Positions 1 to 21,141 of a stretch of DNA of 21,810 bases are shown here, one piece after another. Under the pieces are notes generated by a model. That model was given only the letters and a program-made list of their open reading frames with translations. It was not told the origin of the DNA and did not search any database. The first letter of the stretch is position 1. The number at the start of each line of letters is the position of its first letter. Source of the stretch: a virus; the IMG/VR virus record IMGVR_UViG_3300031608_000056, positions 1 through 21,810 of that record; one strand, 5' to 3'. The position numbers and the translations under genes are program-made.

Positions 1-525
1 ACCGAAGGTAAATTCCAAAAAGATGACCTTGTATATAACAAACGAACTAAGACCGTTGGTATTGTAAGATTAGGTGATGATAAGAGTGGTGAAGTAAAAA
101 CTGATGCTGATGGTAATGTAGATGTAGATGAATTGGAAAAATATAACCCAATCAAAAATAAACATCAACAAAACGCTAAAGTTGCACCATCTACTGAAAA
201 AGAGGTAAGTAAGCGTGGGTTATTCAATCCATTCAAAAACGAATCTATCACAGAATCATCAGATACATACTTCAAATCATTTGGAGCAGCTGCAGATGCT
301 GCGAGAGCAATGGCTGAGAAGCGTGGGTTCGAAATAACAGAACACGATTGGCAAACGCAAGTTGCAATGGGTGGGAAATATTCTCGTTCAAGACCATCGG
401 TAGGTAAAACTACTTCATTCACAGTAGGATTAACAAAGGGTGGTAAGTCGGCTAGAAAAGCACTTACATTTTCAGTATATGGAATGGATAGTGGTAATTT
501 CGAATTGACTGCATATATAAACTAA
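1..525 (+). CDS. Modular structural protein, 3' part only (5' end outside window)
   Basis: The reading frame is open from base 1, so the gene starts to the left; 174 codons are visible. Window codons 5-50 form a basic, beta-rich segment (V-Y-N-K-R-T-K-T-V-G-I-V) that resembles a KOW/SH3-like fold, which is inference. After a linker, codons 81-85 read E-S-I-T-E, matching the hydrophobic-x-Glu rule of T4-type prohead proteases. The remaining ~89 residues (86-174) are a compact module beginning S-S-D-T-Y-F-K-S-F-G and ending Y-E/F-E-L-x-A-Y-I-N style. I have the impression of similar C-terminal modules in marine T4-like phages but cannot name a function. A TTG at 133 could be read as a start, but coding sequence clearly continues upstream of it. 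It lies 10 bases before the next gene, probably in the same operon. Confidence 0.75.
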   Translation, partial: TEGKFQKDDLVYNKRTKTVGIVRLGDDKSGEVKTDADGNVDVDELEKYNPIKNKHQQNAKVAPSTEKEVSKRGLFNPFKNESITESSDTYFKSFGAAADAARAMAEKRGFEITEHDWQTQVAMGGKYSRSRPSVGKTTSFTVGLTKGGKSARKALTFSVYGMDSGNFELTAYIN

Positions 526-6818: not shown

Positions 6819-6952
6819 TTCCAAAAAAGAAAAAAATCATTAAAGAAGCACTTTCAAATAAGGATTTGGAAGATATCAGACTACTTATTAGATATGAGGT
6901 TGCGCAAATTATGTTTGATTTATATAAGAAACGAAAAGTGTGGGATAAATAA
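6815..6952 (+). CDS. 45-aa basic protein between head-core gene and protease
   Basis: A short reading frame of 45 codons fills the only gap in this operon exactly. Its ATG overlaps the upstream stop (ATGA at 6815-6818) and its TAA shares one base with the protease ATG at 6952. The protein starts M-I-P-K-K-K-K-I-I-K-E-A-L and ends L-Y-K-K-R-K-V-W-D-K; the middle (L-E-D-I-R-L-L-I-R-Y-E-V-A-Q-I-M-F) is a likely amphipathic helix. Perfect overlap on both sides is strong evidence for translation, since nothing else would be encoded in these bases. The function is unknown; it sits where T4 has its small core gene 68. Confidence 0.8.
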   Translation: MIPKKKKIIKEALSNKDLEDIRLLIRYEVAQIMFDLYKKRKVWDK

Positions 6953-7566
6953 TGAGTAAACTATTAGTAGATATAATACCGTTTAGTATAACGCCGAATC
7001 AACTTAACGAATCCATGTCAAAGAACAATGGTCGTTTAATAGTTGAAGGTGTATTACAACGTTCTGAAGCAGAAAACCAAAACGGAAGAATCTATCCAAC
7101 TGAAATTCTCAAACGAGAAGTAAAGAAGTATATGGGTAGAGAAGTAAAAGAAAATAGAGCATTCGGTGAGTTAGACCATCCAGATGCATCTGTAATAGAA
7201 TTAAAAAATACATCTCATATCATACGTGATATATGGTGGGAAGGTAATGATGTAATTGGAAAGGTAGAGATACTAAAAACTCCATCAGGAAATATCCTTA
7301 AAGAACTGTTAGAAGCAGGATGTACGGTTGGTATATCATCTAGGGGATTAGGTTCAGTTAAAGAATCATCTGATAATGGAACGGTTACAGTTGATGCTGA
7401 TTTTGATTTAATCTGTTGGGATTTCGTATCGAACCCATCAACACATGGTGCATTTATGAGACCTGTTAATGAATCCGTAAAAAGGGGTTCTACAAAATCA
7501 TATAAAAAAATTAATACATTAGTACGTGACATCATCTGTGAAATTGATGGTGTTTGTACAATATAA
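6952..7566 (+). CDS. Prohead maturation protease, gp21-like
   Basis: This is the serine protease that enters the prohead with the scaffold and trims capsid, scaffold and internal proteins during maturation. The 204 aa are close to T4 gp21 (212 aa). Visible are the opening block G-R-L-I-V-E-G-V-L-Q-R-S-E-A-E-N-Q-N-G-R (27-46), the His of E-L-D-H-P-D (H76), the Ser of V-G-I-S-S-R-G-L-G-S (S129 or S130) and D157 in C-W-D-F-V-S-N-P-S; the family uses a His/Ser/Asp-type site, though I cannot fix the third residue. The C-terminal region contains P-V-N-E-S (171-175), which fits the hydrophobic-x-Glu cleavage rule, so self-processing near residue 174 is likely. It lies directly upstream of the presumed substrates at 7582 and 9623. 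Confidence 0.95.
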   Translation: MSKLLVDIIPFSITPNQLNESMSKNNGRLIVEGVLQRSEAENQNGRIYPTEILKREVKKYMGREVKENRAFGELDHPDASVIELKNTSHIIRDIWWEGNDVIGKVEILKTPSGNILKELLEAGCTVGISSRGLGSVKESSDNGTVTVDADFDLICWDFVSNPSTHGAFMRPVNESVKRGSTKSYKKINTLVRDIICEIDGVCTI

Positions 7567-7581
7567 AACTTAGGTAATACA

Positions 7582-9618
7582 ATGAAAAAACTAAAAGACT
7601 TATTGAATGAAGCAATGAACCCAACTGTGGGTAAAGTTTATTCAGACCCATACGCAACATCGTTTGTAAAGGAGCAAGATGAACAATCTAAAGAGAGTGA
7701 TGAATTTACATCCGAACAACGTGAAGTATTCTTAGAAGCTGTTAAACAGTATAAGAAGTTTGGTGAATCTATTTACAGAAAAAGTGAATTAAAGGAAGTG
7801 TGTAATTCTATCAAAGGTTTAGTTGAGGTTGCTAATAAGGTAACTATCAAAGAGACTGGTGATTGGTTCGATGGTGTAACCGTTTCTCGTCATATGAAGA
7901 GAATGAATGAATCATATAGAGTATTTGAAAAAACGCTTACCGAAGTTGCAACATTACAACAACGTATGGAATCATCTTATGATGAGATTGGTGAAGTTCT
8001 TGGAAAGTATTATGAAATCCATAATGGTGATAGTGATTTAGATGAAGGGAATGAATTTGGTGCTGCAAGAGCAAAGGCAATCGCAAATGGTAGTGATTCA
8101 TTCGAAGTTGATGGTGAAACATTCCCAGTTAAGGATGTAGATTCTGATGATAAAGAAAACGCTAAAGAATTCGCTAAAGAATCAGTAGTTAACGAAGGAA
8201 GAGTATCAGCTGTAAAATTACTTAAATTAGTTGCCGCAGGTAAATCTAAGGAAGTAGAGGGAATTAAACTTTCAAAAGAAATGGCTGAACATTATATTTA
8301 TTGGATAAATACATCAGCATTCGGTAAAGCATACGGAACATTACCTTGGTATCAATTATTTAGTGCATCATTCAATTGGGGTATTGAGCGTGGTACTGAT
8401 AAGTTATTAAAAAAAGAACTAATGAAATTAAAAGCATTGAGTAAGAAAGTTAAATCGAATGAATCAGTAAATGAAACTAAGTTCATCGCATTCTATAATA
8501 ATAAACAACATAAGATAGAAGGTAAAGATTTATGGGATGCAAAGTTAAAAGCAATTAAGCAATTAAAAATTCCTAAATCAAAGCAGGGGTTGTTGGCAAT
8601 CAAATCAGAAAAATCAATGGCTAATCAGGACTTCAGATACGAATCAGTAAATGAGGGTTCTAAGAATGTTTGGAAAAGTAATGATACCTTATATGTAGAT
8701 ACTGATTTTGTTAATGCTTGTAAAGGAAAATTACCACATTCTGAATTAAAACATATGGGTGGTGGTGATTTTATGTTACAAACTGAAGAGGGTAATATAT
8801 TATTCATTAGAACAAATGAGAAGTTTAAGAATCAATCAGGTAGAGCACATAAGATAAAGGATAATGAAAACGGTAAGTTAGTAGCTAAGTTAATCAAAGC
8901 AATGAGTGGTAAGATTCAGAATGAAGCCGTAAATGAAGCAGTTGCATATGATATCGGTATGGCAAGAAAAGGAAATGGTATCACTATCTATAATAAAGCA
9001 GTAGAAGAAAATGGTGATTTTAAAAATATAGCACATATAGATAACAAAGGTAACGTGAAATTCTTTGATAAAAAACTTCCATCTAAAATCAAAAAGATGA
9101 TAGAGTTAGAAGCAAATAAAATGAAAGAATCAGTAAACGAAATAGGAAACACAATGAAATTAAAAGATTTAATAAAAGAATCAATTGGTCTTGGTGATTT
9201 ACCATCATCTAAGTTAATGAAAATGAAAATGACATTAAAGGAGTTAGAGGAATCAGAGAAATCAGAACCTTCAATGAAATTAGCTAGTATGGTAAGTAAC
9301 ATTGGAACATTACCATCATCTAAGTTAATGAAAATGAAAATGACATTGGCTGAATTAGAAGCATCTGAGCGTGGTGAGGTTGTAACTTCATTAAAAGAAG
9401 AGCAATTGAAGTTCGACAAATTAAACGAAGGATTTGCTATGTGGGAAATGAGTTTCGCAGCAATGACTCTTAGTGGTGTTAAATTAGACCCTAAAAAGAA
9501 ATACAAAGTAAAGGCTAGAAATACAGTAGAGGCTATTAAGAAGGCATCTAAGATGGCTGGATTGACTGGAAGTGATTGGATGGCAACACAAACTAACTCA
9601 TTAAAAAAAATAGGATAA
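7582..9618 (+). CDS. Multi-module capsid internal polyprotein, predicted substrate of the prohead protease
   Basis: The 678-aa protein is Lys/Glu-rich, has no membrane helix and no enzyme motif. It opens M-K-K-L-K-D-L-L-N-E, a 10-residue leader ending L-N-E. It is then divided by near-identical pentapeptides: E-S-V-V-N-E (200-205), E-S-V-N-E (294-298, 354-358, 516-520), E-A-V-N-E (448-452) and K-L-N-E (613-616). All fit the hydrophobic-x-Glu rule of gp21-type proteases. The intervals (about 60-95 aa) look like separate small domains unlike each other. A second leader-like start, M-K-L-K-D-L-I-K-E (525-533), follows the 520 site. Residues 540-558 are duplicated at 578-596. Its ATG has AGG 8 bases upstream. 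Position directly after the protease supports an internal head-protein role; this is inference. Confidence 0.85.
   Translation: MKKLKDLLNEAMNPTVGKVYSDPYATSFVKEQDEQSKESDEFTSEQREVFLEAVKQYKKFGESIYRKSELKEVCNSIKGLVEVANKVTIKETGDWFDGVTVSRHMKRMNESYRVFEKTLTEVATLQQRMESSYDEIGEVLGKYYEIHNGDSDLDEGNEFGAARAKAIANGSDSFEVDGETFPVKDVDSDDKENAKEFAKESVVNEGRVSAVKLLKLVAAGKSKEVEGIKLSKEMAEHYIYWINTSAFGKAYGTLPWYQLFSASFNWGIERGTDKLLKKELMKLKALSKKVKSNESVNETKFIAFYNNKQHKIEGKDLWDAKLKAIKQLKIPKSKQGLLAIKSEKSMANQDFRYESVNEGSKNVWKSNDTLYVDTDFVNACKGKLPHSELKHMGGGDFMLQTEEGNILFIRTNEKFKNQSGRAHKIKDNENGKLVAKLIKAMSGKIQNEAVNEAVAYDIGMARKGNGITIYNKAVEENGDFKNIAHIDNKGNVKFFDKKLPSKIKKMIELEANKMKESVNEIGNTMKLKDLIKESIGLGDLPSSKLMKMKMTLKELEESEKSEPSMKLASMVSNIGTLPSSKLMKMKMTLAELEASERGEVVTSLKEEQLKFDKLNEGFAMWEMSFAAMTLSGVKLDPKKKYKVKARNTVEAIKKASKMAGLTGSDWMATQTNSLKKIG
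9154..9618 (+). other. In-frame internal start with leader-like sequence inside the polyprotein gene
   Basis: Codon 525 of the 7582 gene is an ATG preceded by AGGA (9144-9147) at normal ribosome-binding spacing. The 17 bases 9143-9159 match 15 of 17 with the bases around the true start of the same gene (7571-7587), ribosome-binding site included. The encoded M-K-L-K-D-L-I-K-E resembles the gene's own opening M-K-K-L-K-D-L-L-N-E. This looks like the preserved start of a once separate gene now fused in frame, and may still give a 154-aa product. Confidence 0.55.
9199..9347 (+). repeat. Pair of 38-bp perfect direct repeats inside the polyprotein gene
   Basis: Bases 9199-9236 and 9310-9347 are identical, 111 bases (37 codons) apart and in frame. 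They encode L-P-S-S-K-L-M-K-M-K-M-T-L twice, each followed by a Glu-rich helix (E-L-E-x-S-E). Exact identity suggests a recent duplication or gene conversion. Confidence 0.9.
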
Positions 9619-9622
9619 CATT

Positions 9623-10210
9623 ATGAATAAAACAGATATATTACAGGATATTTCAGTTGACTTATCTCAATTGGTAAAGAAACACTTAAAAGAAATCAAA
9701 AAATTAGATGCAACTGACCAAAAAGCATTTGGTAAGATTTTCGGAATGATGAAAGATGCAATTGATGATTTAAGTGAAACTAATGAATCAGTAAATGAAT
9801 CAGCATCAGTAGAAGCATTAAGTATTTCAAAATACACTGGAACTCGTAAGGATGCAGTTCAGACATTCATTGATACTAATAACTTAAACGCTAAGGGTCT
9901 TTTATCGTATGTAGCAAAAGGAAAGATGAAGGAACGTATGGAGTTTGTATCAGCATTAGCTGGTAACGATGGAAATAAATCACAAAAGAACATTATAAAG
10001 ATGTTTTCTGAATCAGTTAATGAGGCTAAAAGTAAAATAGCATTCTTAAACAATAAGTTAGTTGGTGATAGAATACAAAAATCAGGACTGTTACCTTTAT
10101 TAGGTGATAATAACGCAAGTTTAAATAAAAACAAAATGAATTTCATTAAAGATTTAAACAAAAGTTTATTAAGTTTATTTAAAAAGTACGGAACTTTACC
10201 AATAAAGTAA
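9623..10210 (+). CDS. Second modular capsid internal protein with protease-site spacers
   Basis: The 195-aa protein carries two E-S-V-N-E spacers (55-59 and 130-134), dividing it into about 59, 75 and 61 residues. The first part is a helical unit (I-L-Q-D-I-S-V-D-L-S-Q-L-V-K-K-H). The second begins S-A-S-V-E-A-L-S-I-S-K-Y-T-G-T-R-K-D-A-V and has no match I recognise. The third is a Lys-rich, leucine-rich helical unit ending K-Y-G-T-L-P-I-K. It follows the 678-aa gene by four bases, with AGG at 9612-9614 as ribosome-binding site, and is the last gene of the operon before a terminator. The same logic applies as for its neighbour: a chain of small internal head proteins cut by the gp21-like protease. 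Confidence 0.82.
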   Translation: MNKTDILQDISVDLSQLVKKHLKEIKKLDATDQKAFGKIFGMMKDAIDDLSETNESVNESASVEALSISKYTGTRKDAVQTFIDTNNLNAKGLLSYVAKGKMKERMEFVSALAGNDGNKSQKNIIKMFSESVNEAKSKIAFLNNKLVGDRIQKSGLLPLLGDNNASLNKNKMNFIKDLNKSLLSLFKKYGTLPIK

Positions 10211-10289: not shown

Positions 10290-10541
10290 ATGCAAGAGAA
10301 ACGTAAGAACAAACGAGTTACAACAAATGATATGATGATTCCTGGCGCAGCATTGGCTGTAAAGGTAATCGGTGGTAACTTAGAACCAGCACTTAGATTA
10401 TTCAAAAAGAAGATGAAGGATAGTGGTAAATTGGAGGAGCTTAAAGCTCGGAAAGAATTCCTAAAACCATCCGTAATCAAAAGAAGAAAAATGCAGCTCG
10501 CAAAACGAGTTCAATGGAGAAAGGATAATCCCGATATTTAA
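10290..10541 (+). CDS. rpsU: Phage-encoded ribosomal protein bS21 homologue
   Basis: bS21 is a small 30S subunit protein near the 3' end of 16S rRNA that affects translation initiation. Residues 24-83 carry the family pattern: V-K-V at the start, then A-L-R-L-F-K-K-K-M-K-D-S-G-K-L-E-E-L, R-K-E-F-L-K-P-S and a basic tail K-R-R-K-M-Q-L-A-K-R. Bacterial bS21 reads I-K-V ... A-L-R-R-F-K-R ... R-R-E-F-Y-E-K-P in the same places. The 83 aa exceed the usual ~70 because of a 23-residue N-terminal extension. Phage-borne bS21 genes are known from marine phages. It has no visible Shine-Dalgarno sequence, whereas the scaffold and capsid genes that follow have good ones. It has its own promoter word and stands alone between two units. 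Confidence 0.9.
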   Translation: MQEKRKNKRVTTNDMMIPGAALAVKVIGGNLEPALRLFKKKMKDSGKLEELKARKEFLKPSVIKRRKMQLAKRVQWRKDNPDI

Positions 10542-10691: not shown

Positions 10692-11690
10692 ATGGCAAGA
10701 AAAGACTTGTTATCAGAAGCAATTGCTGATGCAAAAGCTGTCAAAGAAACAGCACTAGCAAACGCTAAATTAGCGTTAGAAGAGGCATTTACACCTCAAC
10801 TTCAATCTATGATATCTGCAAAGTTGGCTGAAGAAGCTGATGAAGATTTAGAAGATGAAATGGAATTAGACACTGATTCAGAAATTGAATTAGAAGAAGA
10901 TGAAATGGAATTGGATATTGATTCAGAAGATGAATTAGAAGAAGATGAATTGGAAGATGAATCTGAAGAAGAAGAAATGGATATGGACTCTGAAGAAGAA
11001 GAAATGGACATGGATTCTGAAGAAGAAGAAATCGAATCAGAAGAAGAAGAAACTGAAGAAGAAGAAGAAATCGAATTAGACGGTGAAGAAGATGAGTTAG
11101 ATTTAGAATCTATCATTAAAGAACTAGAAGATGAAATGAATTCTGAAGAAGAAGAAGAAATGACTGAAGATGAGGAATTAGATTCTGAAGAAGAAGAAAT
11201 TACCGAAGATGAAGAATTAGATTCTGAAGAAGAAATCGATTTGGATGAAGTTATCAGAACATTGAAAGAAATGGAAGATGCATCAGATGAAGAAGAAATC
11301 ACAGAAGATGAAGAATTAGAAGATGAAGAAGATACATCTGCAGATTTAGAAGAAGCTTATAAAACAATTGAAAGTTTACAAAAAACTATCAACGAAGTTA
11401 ATCTATTGAATGCAAAACTTCTTTATACTAACAAATTATTCAGAACATTTGATTTAAATGAAAATCAAAAAGTAAAAGTTCTTGAAAACTTTGATAGAAC
11501 ATCATCAGTAAGAGAAGTTAAGTTAGTATTTTCAACATTAGCTGAGAATCTTAACGTAGCTAAGAAAAAGAAAGTAGTTGTTAGAGAAGGTTATGCTTCA
11601 AAAGCAACTAAGAGTTCTGCCCCAAAGAAAATAATTTCTGAAGGAAATGAAATGGCCGCTCGCTGGAAAAAGCTTGCCGGTTTAAAATAA
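10692..11690 (+). CDS. Acidic prohead scaffold protein, gp22-like
   Basis: The scaffold forms the prohead core around which gp23 assembles and is then degraded by the protease. The call rests on position directly before the major capsid gene, extreme acidity and the ends. Residues 1-9 (M-A-R-K-D-L-L-S-E) are a leader ending L-S-E. Residues 48-216 are almost only Glu, Asp, Ser, Leu, Met and Ile in imperfect repeats (D-M-D-S-E-E-E-E; I-T-E-D-E-E-L-D-S-E-E-E). Residues 217-260 are a predicted coiled coil. The tail has I-I-S-E (314-317) followed by a basic end, A-A-R-W-K-K-L-A-G-L-K. At 332 aa it is longer than T4 gp22 (269), mostly through the acidic repeats. AGGAG at 10680-10684 is a strong ribosome-binding site. 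Confidence 0.88.
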   Translation: MARKDLLSEAIADAKAVKETALANAKLALEEAFTPQLQSMISAKLAEEADEDLEDEMELDTDSEIELEEDEMELDIDSEDELEEDELEDESEEEEMDMDSEEEEMDMDSEEEEIESEEEETEEEEEIELDGEEDELDLESIIKELEDEMNSEEEEEMTEDEELDSEEEEITEDEELDSEEEIDLDEVIRTLKEMEDASDEEEITEDEELEDEEDTSADLEEAYKTIESLQKTINEVNLLNAKLLYTNKLFRTFDLNENQKVKVLENFDRTSSVREVKLVFSTLAENLNVAKKKKVVVREGYASKATKSSAPKKIISEGNEMAARWKKLAGLK

Positions 11691-11709: not shown

Positions 11710-13344
11710 ATGAATTTAAAAAATATCCTTAGTGAAGGTACTTCCCATACCGCTAGATTATCTGAAGCGACAAGAGCTTTAGCTGGTAAATGGGAAAAGA
11801 CTGGACTTTTAGAAGGAATTAGCAACGATGTTGAAAGAGCAGGTGTTGCAACCCTTTTAGAAAACCAAGCAAGACAATTAGTAAAAGAAGCATCATCTAC
11901 TGGTGGTTCTAATTCTGAAGAATGGGCGGGTGTAGCTCTTCCATTAGTAAGAAGAATCTTTTCAGAAATCGTAGCAAAAGAATTTGTATCAGTTCAACCA
12001 ATGAACTTACCATCAGGTTTAGTATTCTATTTGGATTTCAAATATGGAACAGGTCAGCCTGGTTTCGCAACTGGTTCAGGTAAAGATTCACAAGCTGATT
12101 CTGTATTCGGTGTTACCGATACTACAGCAGATGCATCAGGTGGATTATATGGTGCAGGAAGATTTGGTTATACAATCAATGATACTGCAACAGTAGAACA
12201 AGCGTATGGAGCAGCAGCTGGAACAAATGTATTTACTACAGGTTCAGCAGCAGGTGCAAGTGCACACAATTATGATTCTGCATTTAGTGCATCTTATAAT
12301 ACTGAGTTATCATTAGATACTCCAACTGTATTTACAGTAATAGTACCAATGGCTTCTATGCCAGGTTTAGATACTAAAGGTGTTAGAGCATTCAGATTAA
12401 ATGACGCTGCAATTGTTGACCAATTTCCACAATTTACGAAAGTAGTTGGAACGGATGTTGTATTTGTTGTAAAATCAGCTGGATTAACTACTACTAGAGT
12501 TAAGTATCACAAACAACCAACAGATTCATCTCGTGGTGATTTTGAAGCAACAGGTTTATCAAATAACCCTGAAACTGATTCTGATATCCCAGAATTGAAT
12601 GTTGAGATGAAATCAGAACCTATCGTAGCTAAGACTAGAAAGTTAAAAGCACAATGGACTCCTGAATTCGCACAAGATTTAAACGCTTACCATAGTATTG
12701 ATGCAGAAGCTGAATTAACTTCAATGTTATCAGAATACATCTCACAAGAGATTGATTTTGAAATCTTAGATATGTTAATTTCTGAAGCTAAGACTACTGG
12801 TCACTGGTCAACGCAAGTTGGTAGAGAATGGAATGGTACTGGTTTTGCAGATTATTCTACAACAGCAGCACAAGCATCTTCTTACAATCAGGGACAATGG
12901 TTCCAGACTTTAGGAACAGTTATTGCTGGTGTATCTAATAAGATTCACTCTAAAACACTTAGAGGTGGAGCAAATTTCATCGTAGTATCTCCGGATGTTG
13001 CAACAATAATCGAATCTATCCCAGGATATGCTAGTTCAGCAGATAACGGTGATGCACAATTCGCATTTGGTGTACAGAAGATTGGTGCTTTGAATAGCAG
13101 ATTTACTGTATATAAGAATCCTTATATGAAAGAGAACGTAATCTTAATGGGTTACAGAGGAAATCAATTCCTTGAGACTGGAGCAGTTTATGCACCATAT
13201 ATTCCATTAATTATGACTCCTTTAGTATATGACCCTAAAAACTTCACTCCTCGTAAAGGTGTTATGACACGTTACGCGAAGCAGATGTTAAGAGGTGAAT
13301 TCTACGGTAAAGTTTATGTAGATGCATTGAACAAAATTCAATAA
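11710..13344 (+). CDS. Major capsid protein, gp23-like
   Basis: This HK97-fold protein forms the head lattice. The 544 aa (T4 gp23: 521) open with a pro-region, M-N-L-K-N-I-L-S-E-G ... K-W-E-K-T-G-L-L-E-G-I ... L-L-E-N-Q-A-R-Q-L-V-K-E (to residue 60). Then come W-A-G-V-A-L-P-L-V-R-R-I-F (72-84) and V-S-V-Q-P-M-N-L-P-S-G-L-V-F (93-106), which align with the T4 segment following its cleavage at Glu65. Cleavage after E60 (L-V-K-E then A) is therefore predicted. The end, F-Y-G-K-V-Y-V-D-A-L-N, is typical of the family. GGAG (11699-11702) is the ribosome-binding site. The gene follows the scaffold by 19 bases and is closed by a strong terminator. Confidence 0.96.
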   Translation: MNLKNILSEGTSHTARLSEATRALAGKWEKTGLLEGISNDVERAGVATLLENQARQLVKEASSTGGSNSEEWAGVALPLVRRIFSEIVAKEFVSVQPMNLPSGLVFYLDFKYGTGQPGFATGSGKDSQADSVFGVTDTTADASGGLYGAGRFGYTINDTATVEQAYGAAAGTNVFTTGSAAGASAHNYDSAFSASYNTELSLDTPTVFTVIVPMASMPGLDTKGVRAFRLNDAAIVDQFPQFTKVVGTDVVFVVKSAGLTTTRVKYHKQPTDSSRGDFEATGLSNNPETDSDIPELNVEMKSEPIVAKTRKLKAQWTPEFAQDLNAYHSIDAEAELTSMLSEYISQEIDFEILDMLISEAKTTGHWSTQVGREWNGTGFADYSTTAAQASSYNQGQWFQTLGTVIAGVSNKIHSKTLRGGANFIVVSPDVATIIESIPGYASSADNGDAQFAFGVQKIGALNSRFTVYKNPYMKENVILMGYRGNQFLETGAVYAPYIPLIMTPLVYDPKNFTPRKGVMTRYAKQMLRGEFYGKVYVDALNKIQ

Positions 13345-13479: not shown

Positions 13480-14139
13480 ATGATAGAGAACAGATTGAAG
13501 AAAGTACCGAAGGGAACAGTCAAATTCACAGTAAGTTTATCAGATGAGCAGAAGCTTTCAAAAGCAGAAATTCTCGCCCATCCATTTAGTTTCGTAATAG
13601 GAAAAGCTGGGAGTGGTAAAACTCTTTTAGCTTGTCAAATTGGACTAGATATGTTTTTTAAACGAACTGTAAACAAAATAGTAATTACTAGACCCACAGT
13701 TTCAAGTGAGGATAATGGATTTCTTCCAGGTTCGTTAGAAGAGAAAATGGAACCTTGGTTAGTTCCAATCAAATCAAATATGAGGAAGGTTTATAACAAA
13801 CCAGCTATATTAGATAAGATGATGGTAGATGAGCAAATTGAATTAGTATCATTATCTCATTTTAGGGGTAGAACTTTCGAAAACTCCATAGTTATAGTAG
13901 ATGAGTTCCAAAATCTAACTAAACAGCAACTTCGTATGGTATTAGGTAGAGTTGGTAAGGGTTCTACTATGATATTATGTGGTGACCCACATCAATGTGA
14001 TTTAAAATCAAAAAATGATTCGGCGATACATGAAGTTCCAAAATTAAAGGGTTCTAAGTGGGTGTATGATGTTGTATTAAAAGATAACCATAGACATGAA
14101 TCGTTAGATGAAATATTAAAATTGTTAACTGAATATTAA
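13480..14139 (+). CDS. phoH: PhoH-family P-loop ATPase
   Basis: PhoH proteins are cytoplasmic P-loop ATPases related to the motor half of superfamily 1 helicases, and are common accessory genes in marine phages; the exact role is unsettled. In the 219 aa: Walker A G-K-A-G-S-G-K-T (41-48), I-T-R-P-T (69-73), G-F-L-P-G-S-L-E-E-K-M-E-P-W (80-93), F-R-G-R-T-F (128-133), Walker B I-V-I-V-D-E-F-Q-N (137-145) and G-D-P-H-Q-C-D-L (168-175). This is the complete motif set, so the protein should be active. It is a single-domain form without the extra RNA-binding or PIN domains of some bacterial homologues. It sits alone between the capsid terminator and the fibre genes, with promoter words on both sides. 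Confidence 0.95.
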   Translation: MIENRLKKVPKGTVKFTVSLSDEQKLSKAEILAHPFSFVIGKAGSGKTLLACQIGLDMFFKRTVNKIVITRPTVSSEDNGFLPGSLEEKMEPWLVPIKSNMRKVYNKPAILDKMMVDEQIELVSLSHFRGRTFENSIVIVDEFQNLTKQQLRMVLGRVGKGSTMILCGDPHQCDLKSKNDSAIHEVPKLKGSKWVYDVVLKDNHRHESLDEILKLLTEY

Positions 14140-17661: not shown

Positions 17662-18315
17662 ATGGGAATATTCAGAGGGCCAAATATAGTTAGAAGTGGG
17701 TTAGTATTAGCATTGGATGCAGGTAGTGAAAGAAGCTATCCTGGGACTGGGACTACTTGGAGTGATTTGAGTGGTGAGGGAAATGATGCTCAACTAGAAT
17801 CCACACCCACATTTTCAAATGGTCATTTTAATTTCGATGGTAGCGGGGCAAAAGCCAGAATCGACTCCCCAATTGGTGGAGCAGGTAAGACTACAGCACA
17901 CATATGGTATAAGCGTGATGAAAGTAGTAGTTCTACTTCATGGCGTACATTAATAGGTGCAAATTCCGCAAATATCCACCATTTAATAAGTAAAGCATCA
18001 TCGAGGGAGTTAGGGGTATGGGATGGCTCATTTAGAGGATTTGGATATACACCAGTAGCTGATGGGTTATATCATAATTATGTTATTATATACGATAGTG
18101 CTACTACCGCATCATTGTACGTTGATGGTTTATTTGTTAGTACGATTGTTGTAGTTGTAAATCTAACTACATATCCAATAGGTAACATCGGGAATTGGGG
18201 TGGTGGTAGCTATTGGGCAGGATATATTGGTAGTGTACTATTATATGACAAAGAACTAACCTTGGATGAAATAACACAAAATTATAACGCACAAAAAAAT
18301 AGATTTAATTTATAA
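17662..18315 (+). CDS. LamG/concanavalin-like adhesin (paralogue 1)
   Basis: The 217-aa protein has the concanavalin A-like (LamG) glycan-binding fold pattern: G-P-N-I-V-R-S-G-L-V-L-A-L-D-A-G at the start, W-S-D-L-S-G-E-G-N-D-A (32-42), F-N-F-D-G-S-G (56-62), W-Y-K-R-D, L-Y-V-D-G-L-F-V, I-G-S-V-L-L-Y-D-K-E-L-T-L-D-E-I and the closing N-Y-N-A-Q-K-N-R-F-N-L. Phage proteins of this kind are virion-surface adhesins that probably bind cell-surface sugars. There is only one domain here, against two in the paralogues at 18651 and 19822. It begins one base after the previous stop, in a tight five-gene unit. Confidence 0.85.
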   Translation: MGIFRGPNIVRSGLVLALDAGSERSYPGTGTTWSDLSGEGNDAQLESTPTFSNGHFNFDGSGAKARIDSPIGGAGKTTAHIWYKRDESSSSTSWRTLIGANSANIHHLISKASSRELGVWDGSFRGFGYTPVADGLYHNYVIIYDSATTASLYVDGLFVSTIVVVVNLTTYPIGNIGNWGGGSYWAGYIGSVLLYDKELTLDEITQNYNAQKNRFNL

Positions 18316-18319
18316 AGAT

Positions 18320-18649
18320 ATGTTTAAAAATAGAAGATGGTTGGTAATACCAACTAATTTAACAGAATCAATTAACTTTAACCAAATACATCAACCATCA
18401 ATCGATACATTAAGAGTATCACTTGATGGTGCTAGTACATTTGTTAAGTATGATATAGTAGATGTAACGGAATCGTATGATACTACTTTCACAGACCCAG
18501 AAACGGATGATGATGTAACTACAACTACTAATGCTGGAATTTATGGTAGACCTTCAATTTATAGTTCGAGTTACGGTGAATATACACATACGGAAATATT
18601 AAATATACTAACTGGTAGTAATTGGTCAACCCCAATAGAAGGAGAATAA
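18320..18649 (+). CDS. Small protein between adhesin genes, function unknown
   Basis: The 109-aa protein starts M-F-K-N-R-R-W-L-V-I-P-T and has I-N-F-N-Q-I-H-Q-P-S-I-D-T-L-R-V-S-L-D-G-A-S-T-F-V-K-Y (20-45). It then has an acidic Thr/Asp-rich stretch (F-T-D-P-E-T-D-D-D-V-T-T-T) and ends S-Y-G-E-Y-T-H-T-E-I-L-N-I-L-T-G-S-N-W. I have a vague memory of such proteins next to fibre genes in marine T4-like phages, possibly as adaptor or assembly factor; that is not evidence. There is no signal peptide and no membrane segment. It is packed between two LamG genes (4 bases before, 1 base after), so it is probably part of the same structure. Confidence 0.72.
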   Translation: MFKNRRWLVIPTNLTESINFNQIHQPSIDTLRVSLDGASTFVKYDIVDVTESYDTTFTDPETDDDVTTTTNAGIYGRPSIYSSSYGEYTHTEILNILTGSNWSTPIEGE

Positions 18650-18650
18650 T

Positions 18651-19820
18651 ATGGCAACGACAGGGGGACCAAATATAGTAACAGATGGGTTAGTATTCGG
18701 GTATGATACTGGCTTCCCATCGGCAAATAATGATACACCTCTTAGGTTTTATAATGGAGAGCCTACTGTTAATAAAATAACCGATGATATAACCGCTAGT
18801 GGTATTGATGGTTCGGGTCAATCTTCAATCGGAACTCGGGTTGTTCTTGGAACGCAGCATATTAGAATAACGGATGTTGCATCTAATAGTAGACAATCAA
18901 CGCTTGTCCAAGGATTAACAGGTGGCGCAAATTACACAGTTAGTATCCAATATAAAAAAATAGCAGGAGCTCCAACATTTAGGTTTCAACTACAAAATTA
19001 TAATGGGAGTAGTTATGTAAGTACAATCGCATTCCCAACTACAGTACAAATTGGGTTGGTCGATGTTAGTGGGTGGCAGACCGCAACATATTCATTCACA
19101 TTAGCCTCTGGTGCTAATGGCATGCGTGTTTGGTATCAAGATGGAAACGATTATACCACATATACTCATATATATGAGATAAAAAATCCACAATTGGAAC
19201 AAAACTCCCACAGAACACCCTATACGGCAGCTGCTGATGTACGCTCAGTATCAGGCTCTCTTATGGATTTAGCAGGAATATCTGATATTGATGTATCGAA
19301 TATCTCATTTGATTCAACAGCACATCCCACATTTGATGGGACTGATGATAAGCTTACAATTTCAAATAATAATCAAGTTGCATTTGGTTCTGGTGATTTT
19401 ACATTAGAGGTAGTGACAAAACCAACTAGCTTTAGTACATACACTCATTTAGTTTCATTACCATTACAAAGTACGTTTTCTTTAAAAGCTACCAAACATG
19501 ATGGTAATTTGTATTTTTATTCACCTAGCTTTACCACATTCGGCTCAACTGATGGGTGGAATCTTACTCTTAATGAGTGGAATAGCGTTGTGTTGGTTCG
19601 TAAATCAGGAGTAGCGTATTGTTATTTAAATGGCACTCTCATAGGTACAAAATCAGGGTTCAATAATATCCTTACAGCACAAGATGTGAATATTGGATGG
19701 GGGTGGGGGTCTGAATACACCCCACAATCCATTCCAATCGTAAGAGTTTACAATGTAGGGCTTACTGATGATGAGGTAGAACAAAATTTTAACGCATACA
19801 AACATAGATTCGGGATATAA
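18651..19820 (+). CDS. Two-domain LamG-like adhesin with carbohydrate-binding N-terminal domain (paralogue 2)
   Basis: The 389-aa protein starts G-G-P-N-I-V-T-D-G-L-V-F-G-Y-D-T-G as in paralogue 1. Residues about 40-195 resemble a CBM4/9-like or galactose-binding jelly roll: Y-T-V-S-I-Q-Y-K-K, W-Q-T-A-T-Y-S-F-T-L, then N-P-Q-L-E-Q-N-S-H-R-T-P-Y-T, the last being a hallmark of that family in tail proteins. Residues about 205-389 are a LamG domain: F-D-S-T-A-H-P-T-F-D-G-T-D-D (near 220-233), F-T-L-E-V-V-T-K-P, W-N-S-V-V-L-V-R-K and the closing N-F-N-A-Y-K-H-R-F-G-I. AAGGAGA directly before the ATG is the strongest ribosome-binding site of the unit. Confidence 0.85.
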   Translation: MATTGGPNIVTDGLVFGYDTGFPSANNDTPLRFYNGEPTVNKITDDITASGIDGSGQSSIGTRVVLGTQHIRITDVASNSRQSTLVQGLTGGANYTVSIQYKKIAGAPTFRFQLQNYNGSSYVSTIAFPTTVQIGLVDVSGWQTATYSFTLASGANGMRVWYQDGNDYTTYTHIYEIKNPQLEQNSHRTPYTAAADVRSVSGSLMDLAGISDIDVSNISFDSTAHPTFDGTDDKLTISNNNQVAFGSGDFTLEVVTKPTSFSTYTHLVSLPLQSTFSLKATKHDGNLYFYSPSFTTFGSTDGWNLTLNEWNSVVLVRKSGVAYCYLNGTLIGTKSGFNNILTAQDVNIGWGWGSEYTPQSIPIVRVYNVGLTDDEVEQNFNAYKHRFGI

Positions 19821-19821
19821 T

Positions 19822-21141
19822 ATGTATATAGGACCAAACACAACACATACTGGAATTCTATTTGGCTTTGATGCTGATAATAGAAGTACACGCTCTTACA
19901 AAGGTAAGACTTTACTATATGATAACAGCGATTGGCCAACTGACTCCAGTCAGAGTACAAACCGGTGGTCGGCTTGGGCTGGTGGTAACACTCGAACTAC
20001 CGCTACAGACCCTTGGGGAAATCAATCAGTTGTATGGAAATCATCAACAGAGAATTCTACGGCAAGTAGAGGAGGGTTATATGGGAAATCAGTTGCTATT
20101 GATAATACTAAATTATATAGAATATCCTTTTGGGAAAATAGAGTAACTAATAATAGTGCTACTTATGGTCGATATTATCTTGGATGTAATGGGTATGGGA
20201 CTACAAATGGAGTTGGTAATTTAGGTTCAGGTACAGCAAACACAAACCCATATTTTTTTAGTACTTCACGTAATGGTGTTCCTATAGATACTTGGGTATT
20301 AGTGGTAGGTCATATTCACCCATATAATTACACCTCAACCGATGAACACGCTGATTCGGGTCGATGGCTACAAAATGGTACTAATTATAGTAATATCAGT
20401 ACTGATTATATGTGGTTACCACAAACAACATCAGCTCGTCCCAGGTCGTTAGCAATTTACCAAGGAAATGTAGCTGGTATGGTACATCATACAATACATC
20501 CAAGAATGGATTTATGTGATGGTACTGAGCCGAGCTTAGATGACCTACTTAATGGAACACATCATAAATTAATTAATCAAGCTGATAAGCAAGAAGTAAA
20601 TTTATCCAATATGAGTTTTGATTCAACCGAGCATCCCATTTTTGATGGAACTGATGATTCTATAGTTATTGCAAACCCAGGTACAAGCAATACGACTGGA
20701 TTTACTATAGAGATGATTATAAAGCCCGATAGTTATTCAAACGCACCTATGATTATTACACCCAACAGTCATGGGATAGACCATTATATTAGAATAAACA
20801 CAAGCGGTAAAATAAAAATGGTAACTGTTGTAGCAGCGGATTCAACAAGCCAATCCTTCACCTCACAATCTACCCTAACCGCTGGTGAAAATCATCATAT
20901 CATATTTACATACGATTCTGTTTCGGGTGGTCGTGTTTATTTTAATAATGAACTAGAGCGCTCAACTTCACCCAACTTTACGGCTAAGGAGTGGGAAGGT
21001 ACGTGGGCAATAGGTCAGCGTGGTAATTCTACCTATTTTTTTAATGGAAGTTTACCTATCTTAAAAGTTTATAATAAGGTACTCACTCCCAATGAAATAA
21101 GAAGAAACTTTAAAGCATACAAAAAGAGGTTTAATCTATAA
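19822..21141 (+). CDS. Two-domain LamG-like adhesin (paralogue 3)
   Basis: The 439-aa protein starts Y-I-G-P-N-T-T-H-T-G-I-L-F-G-F-D-A-D-N-R-S and ends N-F-K-A-Y-K-K-R-F-N-L, like paralogues 1 and 2. The N-terminal ~230 residues are an aromatic- and Asn-rich domain (W-S-A-W-A-G-G-N; F-W-E-N-R-V-T-N-N; G-R-Y-Y-L-G-C-N-G-Y-G), different from that of paralogue 2. The C-terminal LamG domain carries F-D-S-T-E-H-P-I-F-D-G-T-D-D (about 266-279), F-T-I-E-M-I-I-K-P and G-R-V-Y-F-N-N-E-L. So the C-terminal domain is shared while the N-terminal sensor domain has been exchanged. It starts one base after the previous stop and ends the operon. Confidence 0.85.
   Translation: MYIGPNTTHTGILFGFDADNRSTRSYKGKTLLYDNSDWPTDSSQSTNRWSAWAGGNTRTTATDPWGNQSVVWKSSTENSTASRGGLYGKSVAIDNTKLYRISFWENRVTNNSATYGRYYLGCNGYGTTNGVGNLGSGTANTNPYFFSTSRNGVPIDTWVLVVGHIHPYNYTSTDEHADSGRWLQNGTNYSNISTDYMWLPQTTSARPRSLAIYQGNVAGMVHHTIHPRMDLCDGTEPSLDDLLNGTHHKLINQADKQEVNLSNMSFDSTEHPIFDGTDDSIVIANPGTSNTTGFTIEMIIKPDSYSNAPMIITPNSHGIDHYIRINTSGKIKMVTVVAADSTSQSFTSQSTLTAGENHHIIFTYDSVSGGRVYFNNELERSTSPNFTAKEWEGTWAIGQRGNSTYFFNGSLPILKVYNKVLTPNEIRRNFKAYKKRFNL

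Follow-up and report, generated by a model that had tools for sequence, protein, structure and literature searches.

Chain genes behind the prohead protease of a T4-type viral contig: probable polyproteins of head-internal cargo modules

In a 21.8-kb viral contig with a T4-type head cassette (21,810 nucleotides; this whole stretch is hereafter the window), we observed two consecutive genes, A and B, in which small modules are joined by a recurring junction motif, E-(S/A)-V(V)-N-E. The sequences establish that the chain is modular and that its protease-like junctions are conserved. The best explanation, to which we give a probability of about 0.7, is that the chains are polyproteins of head-internal cargo modules processed by the prohead protease.

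The genes of the cassette are ordered as terminase (1907), portal gp20 (3556), two head-region genes, S77 protease (6952), A and B, followed 3′ of B by a ribosomal S21-like gene (10290), an acidic gene in the gp22 position (10692) and gp23 (11710). In T4 and in cyanophage S-WAM1, gene 22 comes directly after gene 21, whereas here A, B and the S21-like gene intervene; these three are therefore extra relative to both phages. The protease upstream of A had been called gp21-like by a sequence-only reading of this DNA, and profile searches bore this out: it matched Peptidase_S77 and a PHROG head maturation protease. The landmarks around A and B are as follows.

1..525 (+), 3′ part of a second chain gene, with modules U2 and U3 joined at ESITE (241-255)
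6952..7566 (+), prohead protease, gp21-like Peptidase_S77 (PF03420, E=1e-34; phrog_207, E=6e-56)
10692..11690 (+), acidic gp22-like scaffold, assigned by position and composition, without a Pfam/PHROG family match
11710..13344 (+), gp23-like major capsid protein, inferred propeptide site VKE|A at residue 60 (11881-11889)

The upstream chain, when complete, has 311 aa (L058:1639-2574, same contig). In the window at 536-925, second chain-type locus upstream of terminase, there is a weaker junction, ESTNE, with T at P3; chains of the upstream locus are as long as 808 aa in relatives. The S21-like gene (10290-10541), between the chains and the scaffold gene, is kept in most relatives and in Microcystis phage Mel-JY01. 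After the capsid gene, 13480-14139 may encode a PhoH-like ATPase with the P-loop GKAGSGKTLLACQ, and PhoH is annotated slightly downstream of the capsid genes in Mel-JY01 and Flavobacterium phage immuto. Further on, 17662-21141 encodes paralogous proteins, probably of tail or fibre, that start GPNxVxxGLVxxxD and have an LTxDEIxxNxxAxKxRF-like C-terminal end; a collagen-like GxxG repeat protein follows them from 21196 on.

All seven junction sites that the sequence-only reading had placed in A and B were located at their residues, and its open reading frames and coordinates were likewise recovered. Shuffled A+B contained 0.004 such sites on average and 0/100,000 shuffles reached seven. The features of the two chains are listed below.

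7582..9618 (+), chain A, predicted polyprotein of 678 aa, first gene 3′ of the prohead protease
7582..7611 (+), N-terminal leader MKKLKDLLNE|A of chain A, resembling T4 IPII/IPIII MKTYQEFIAE|A (PMC9026906)
7612..8196 (+), module A1+A1b, residues 11-205, helical, kept in nearly all relatives
8179..8196 (+), site ESVVNE, A residues 200-205, motif; pLDDT < 50 at 201-205
8197..8475 (+), module A2, residues 206-298 including its terminal site; position varies among relatives
8461..8475 (+), site ESVNE, A residues 294-298, motif; pLDDT < 50 at 293-296
8476..8655 (+), module A3, residues 299-358, predicted alpha/beta fold; core residues 301-340 at pLDDT 90-94
8641..8655 (+), site ESVNE, A residues 354-358; pLDDT < 50 just before, at 348-352
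8656..8937 (+), module A4, residues 359-452
8923..8937 (+), site EAVNE, A residues 448-452, motif; pLDDT < 50 at 444-453
8938..9141 (+), module A5, residues 453-520, KYDIGMARKGNG family, with 25 different upstream sequences
9127..9141 (+), site ESVNE, A residues 516-520, within the predicted helix 501-523 that closes A5
9154..9180 (+), embedded leader MKLKDLIKE|S in chain A, a sign of ORF fusion
9181..9429 (+), module A6, residues 534-616, ending in site LNE|G; a stand-alone gene in L027/L030
9430..9615 (+), module A7, residues 617-678
9623..10210 (+), chain B, 195 aa: B1 (1-59), B2 (60-134), B3 (135-195)
9785..9799 (+), site ESVNE, B residues 55-59, motif, in predicted coil
10010..10024 (+), site ESVNE, B residues 130-134, motif

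Beyond the seven sites, we observed more hydrophobic-N-E sites in A at residues 8-10 (the leader) and 614-616, the embedded leader at A residues 525-533, the upstream chain gene and a PVNE|S sequence at the C-terminus of the protease. As in a polyprotein, each reading frame has several independent domains with protease-like sites at the borders. Module A6 contains an internal LPSSKLMKMKMTL repeat; LPSSKLMKMKMTLxELE is present twice within the module (window 9181-9370).

Such arrays could also stem from chimeric assembly of metagenome contigs or from low-complexity repeats that arose by chance, and the sequences do come mostly from uncultured contigs. However, the motif count was never reached in the shuffles, identical chains occur in different samples (L012, L013, L015), the frames are long and open throughout, and the cultured phage immuto carries an ESVNE-bearing gene of 841 aa (gene 191) upstream of its terminase, with several other hydrophobic-x-E sites. 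We regard an artefact as very improbable.

Family searches gave little: Pfam returned no domain above cut-off for A, B and the chains of ten relatives, PHROG profiles matched the chains only with families without known function, and PADLOC produced weak matches only. The structure of chain A was predicted by AlphaFold with 34 alignment rows, picked by known module positions (pLDDT 68.6, pTM 0.26); the low pTM fits independent units. Confident modules were obtained at about 207-292, 299-347, 360-443 and 454-522, with pLDDT < 50 also at 523-562, and most intervals were predicted as compact folds of differing kinds at pLDDT 80-95. The sequence-only reading had held that domains crossing the sites would speak against it. 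No globular domain crosses a site in the model, and confidence dips at or beside the sites; the terminal helix of A5, in contrast, runs through 516-520. In chain B (eight rows), B2 (61-131) reached pLDDT 82-90, and B1 and B3 were of low confidence. Foldseek with the chain A model found no match in the PDB at E<=0.001; its best viral matches were weak (a Tenacibaculum phage pT24 protein, E 2e-3), and it also returned short phage proteins of 53-59 aa with probability 1 but E about 0.2-0.3. None of these fold matches pointed to a function.

Since splitting the chains at the motif would make its agreement with module borders circular, unsplit chains (136 proteins) were aligned too. The ends of homology blocks peaked at offsets -1/0, that is, at the last residue of the motif, and 34% lay within 6 aa of [VILF]NE, compared with 10% at random; two controls, NE after a non-hydrophobic residue and [VIL]xD, were only slightly raised. 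Among 197 boundaries with at least four supporting alignments, 59% had [VILF]xE within 3 aa (21% at random) and about 41% had none within that distance; as the contigs are related, neither these boundary counts nor the context counts below are independent events. The boundary Glu was preceded by V/I/L/F at P3 in 68% of cases versus 32% for other Glu, and by Asn at P2 in 51% versus 14%. In each of the 25 upstream contexts listed, A5 starts no more than two residues from [VILM](N/S)E, and A2 starts ISAIGG alike after the leader MIKLKDILTE, the leader MKLTDIKNSLNE or the linker ESINE. The idea that strict ESVNE is abundant in all relatives was rejected; many junctions are [VIL]xE variants.

Next, we compared the leaders and sites with those of T4. 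In the T4 capsid-targeting sequence, residues 4 and 7 serve targeting and residues 8 and 10 processing, and gp21 is reported to cut after L/I-x-E, preferring L/I at P3 (PMC9026906). Chain A begins with a leader of about 10 aa ending in hydrophobic-x-E, as T4-type internal head proteins do (MKTYQEFIAE|A at the N-terminus of T4 IPII and IPIII). A strict leader pattern was present in 57/142 proteins of the downstream locus versus 65/579 elsewhere, the latter including other head proteins; of 19 upstream chains, only two had it. Full leaders embedded inside chains, 45 of which were counted in relatives, are expected if genes have fused. Most junctions have V at P3, unlike the L/I reported for T4 gp21. 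In 34 aligned capsid proteins of the lineage, residue 60, which we take to be the counterpart of the maturation position of T4 gp23, is the last of a V/I-x-E before A, so that V at P3 is plausible for the protease of this lineage. Judged from this alignment position, the capsid protein of the phage would be matured at VKE|A; the chain sites agree with it in chemistry. For gp21-type proteases, the sequence-only reading had noted cutting after hydrophobic-x-Glu. The C-terminal region of the protease has a conserved PVNE|S or nearby variants (E at 7471-7473), a predicted self-cleavage site.

Loci of relatives, nearly all metagenome contigs, were gathered by A (57) and by the protease (80). The closest cultured relatives by protease are Mel-JY01 (53%) and immuto (50%); in Mel-JY01 the gene 3′ of the protease encodes one protein of 154 aa, which matches A residues 30-147. 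When the chains of about 80 contigs were split at the motif, 529 pieces fell into 163 module clusters, 62 of them with two or more members. Single-linkage clustering had merged unrelated modules and was dropped in favour of another clustering.

Profiles of the window modules, used to locate them in genes of relatives, showed that one module can occupy gene A, gene B, the upstream chain or a stand-alone gene with its own leader. A2, for example, comes third in the window. It has a C-terminal place in L002 and an N-terminal one in L026 and L008, lies within gene B in L037, and stands alone as a 100-aa gene in L029. B2 belongs to gene B in the window, but L002, L008 and L070 have it in gene A, and in L065 it lies upstream. 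From the upstream chain, U2 turns up in chain A of L026, L008 and L077, and L059, L062 and L081 have U3 as a 98-aa gene. In L027 and L030, A6 makes up a gene by itself. Several relatives encode B1 as a 52-aa gene; in L073 and L074 it follows A6 in a fusion. Ordered module pairs numbered thirty, and stand-alone module genes occur only in relatives (L027-L030, L037, L059, L081). In the comparison of close pairs, several differences were contig ends; L096/L100 and L004/L005, however, have complete chain genes and protease DNA 99.2% and 97.6% identical, respectively, yet differ in chain content or order. Module turnover, as read from near-identical protease DNA beside different chains, is fast. 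The shuffling of intervals between conserved spacers, which had been proposed as something to look for among homologues, is thus seen; like the modules, the candidate sites and their match to the boundaries, it can be read directly from the sequences.

These observations also bear on the possibility that the chains are prohead core or scaffold, like T4 gp22, gp67 and gp68, cut many times so that the pieces exit the head, the modules being spacers and not cargo. The chains do lie between the protease and scaffold genes, and A1 is conserved and helical; moreover, gp21 cleaves T4 core proteins into several pieces, which for the most part are removed (PMC9026906). Most intervals, however, have predicted folds that are compact and differ in kind, they are quickly gained, lost and swapped and also occur as stand-alone genes, and the acidic gp22-like gene is separate. 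We consider a core or scaffold role unlikely.

The linker is conserved as DNA too. In the window its 15-nt form matches 6 times (<=2 mismatches), where 0.19 matches would be expected. Of 63 ESVNE copies with 40-aa flanks <50% identical, 35 have the exact spelling GAATCAGTAAACGAA, compared with 5.4% expected from the codon use of the chains (binomial p=6e-28). AAC predominates as the Asn codon of the linker, but in the rest of the chains AAT is used more often. Outside the 15 nt, conservation falls to background. Variant linkers (ESLNE, KSVNE, DNVNE, ESITE, leader ILTE or LINE) still keep hydrophobic-x-E, and DNA and protein levels therefore both appear constrained. Being conserved as DNA, the linker may double as a recombination joint, and it is probably such a joint for module swaps; shared ancestry of duplicated linkers would also explain the identical spelling.

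The exact 15-mer in dissimilar contexts, with conservation lost outside it, would also suit uncut multidomain head or injected proteins, in which ESVNE is merely a flexible linker and DNA joint spread by recombination. This we find improbable, as linkers of other spelling or residues retain hydrophobic-x-E, and the same pattern recurs at the capsid-protein maturation position and at the protease C-terminus.

Across nine large records, a degenerate ESVNE/ESINE pattern gave 26 matches versus 1 for the reversed control. Sequences coding for ESVNE/ESINE in seven related contigs are mainly in the two head loci, with matches outside them in at least three contigs (G001 95.8 kb, G004 59.0 kb, G007 90-91 kb). 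In the last of these, a 633-aa chain outside the two usual loci (L136:1988-3889) ends in a phrog_5268 domain that carries a P-loop-like GGAGSGKG motif and resembles a kinase or zeta-type domain. Gene 203 of immuto (L133:10955-12196), scaffold-like and in the gp22 position, has a duplicated block, GFEQWLDSVSAQMDKFGKNNPTIQ..., whose first copy comes directly after VNE; this arrangement suggests module insertion into the scaffold too. L137 carries a C-terminal AEYQGR module, matches to which were found in phages of Pelagibacter and Roseobacter.

From these data we infer the following course of targeting, cutting, packaging and injection. A, B and the upstream chain would be polyproteins of small head-internal modules, each brought into the prohead core by its N-terminal leader. 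As the head matures, the gp21-type protease encoded alongside would cut the ESVNE-type linkers after hydrophobic-x-Glu, removing the leader and releasing each module within the head. Processing of the chains by this protease is likely. The variable modules would most likely be carried in the capsid and delivered to the host with the DNA, like the T4 internal proteins and Alt, and A1/A1b, which is conserved, may belong to the core. The cargo role is assigned to the modules by analogy; that the cargo stays in the head and is then injected is plausible. The conserved linker DNA would probably have a second use, as a joint where recombination exchanges modules. More tentatively, the whole could form a modular delivery platform of tailed phages, an array of interchangeable cassettes where one 15-nt linker is at once protease cut site and recombination joint, and capsid-delivered effectors, strung together, may be rearranged, acquired and lost while remaining packaged and releasable.

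If this holds, the chains amount to a growing list of small proteins delivered by the capsid, each bounded by a readable cut site and perhaps serving host takeover or counter-defence. Modules could be discovered and tested directly, and the chain would be a natural blueprint for filling a phage head with several proteins. The DNA-conserved linker would tie the processing of the protein to the recombination of its modules in a concrete way that can be tested.

In eukaryotic viruses, processed polyproteins are well known. For tailed phages, we found no description of a head-cargo polyprotein in the literature searched, most subscription journals being outside its scope. Polyvalent proteins of phages and conjugative elements have many swappable domains per chain, are thought to enter the host with the DNA and were likened to viral polyproteins by their authors (PMC5512222). 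They contain recognised enzyme domains, which are released by peptidase domains within the chain (PMC5512222), whereas here the predicted protease is a separate head-maturation enzyme and no Pfam domain, effector or peptidase, stood above the cut-off in A, B and the chains of ten relatives. The giant phages SPN3US and phiKZ also process several internal head proteins after a short x-x-Glu motif by prohead proteases; in SPN3US the cuts remove propeptides, 13/14 sites being N-terminal, and a module chain was not reported (PMC10052503). The T4 core proteins gp22, gp67 and gp68 share the gene neighbourhood and are cut at several hydrophobic-x-Glu sites, but the modules here are unrelated, shuffled and predicted to be folded.

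The T4 internal proteins IPI, IPII and IPIII have a leader of the same length and pattern as chain A, M-K-x-hydrophobic-x-acidic-hydrophobic-hydrophobic-x-E (PMC9026906). In both systems these are head genes with the same protease family and a content that varies between relatives. A and B had no significant Pfam/PHROG match relating them to IPI, IPII or IPIII, and only the leader pattern is in common. Each T4 internal protein is a separate small gene away from gene 21, whereas here many are chained with internal sites, and the one-small-protein-per-gene trait is absent (chains of 678 and 195 aa). The chained, shuffled arrangement, which we did not find described in the literature searched, appears new relative to the T4 system. 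Sharing leader, protease family and genomic setting, the chains are best set beside the T4 internal-protein system.
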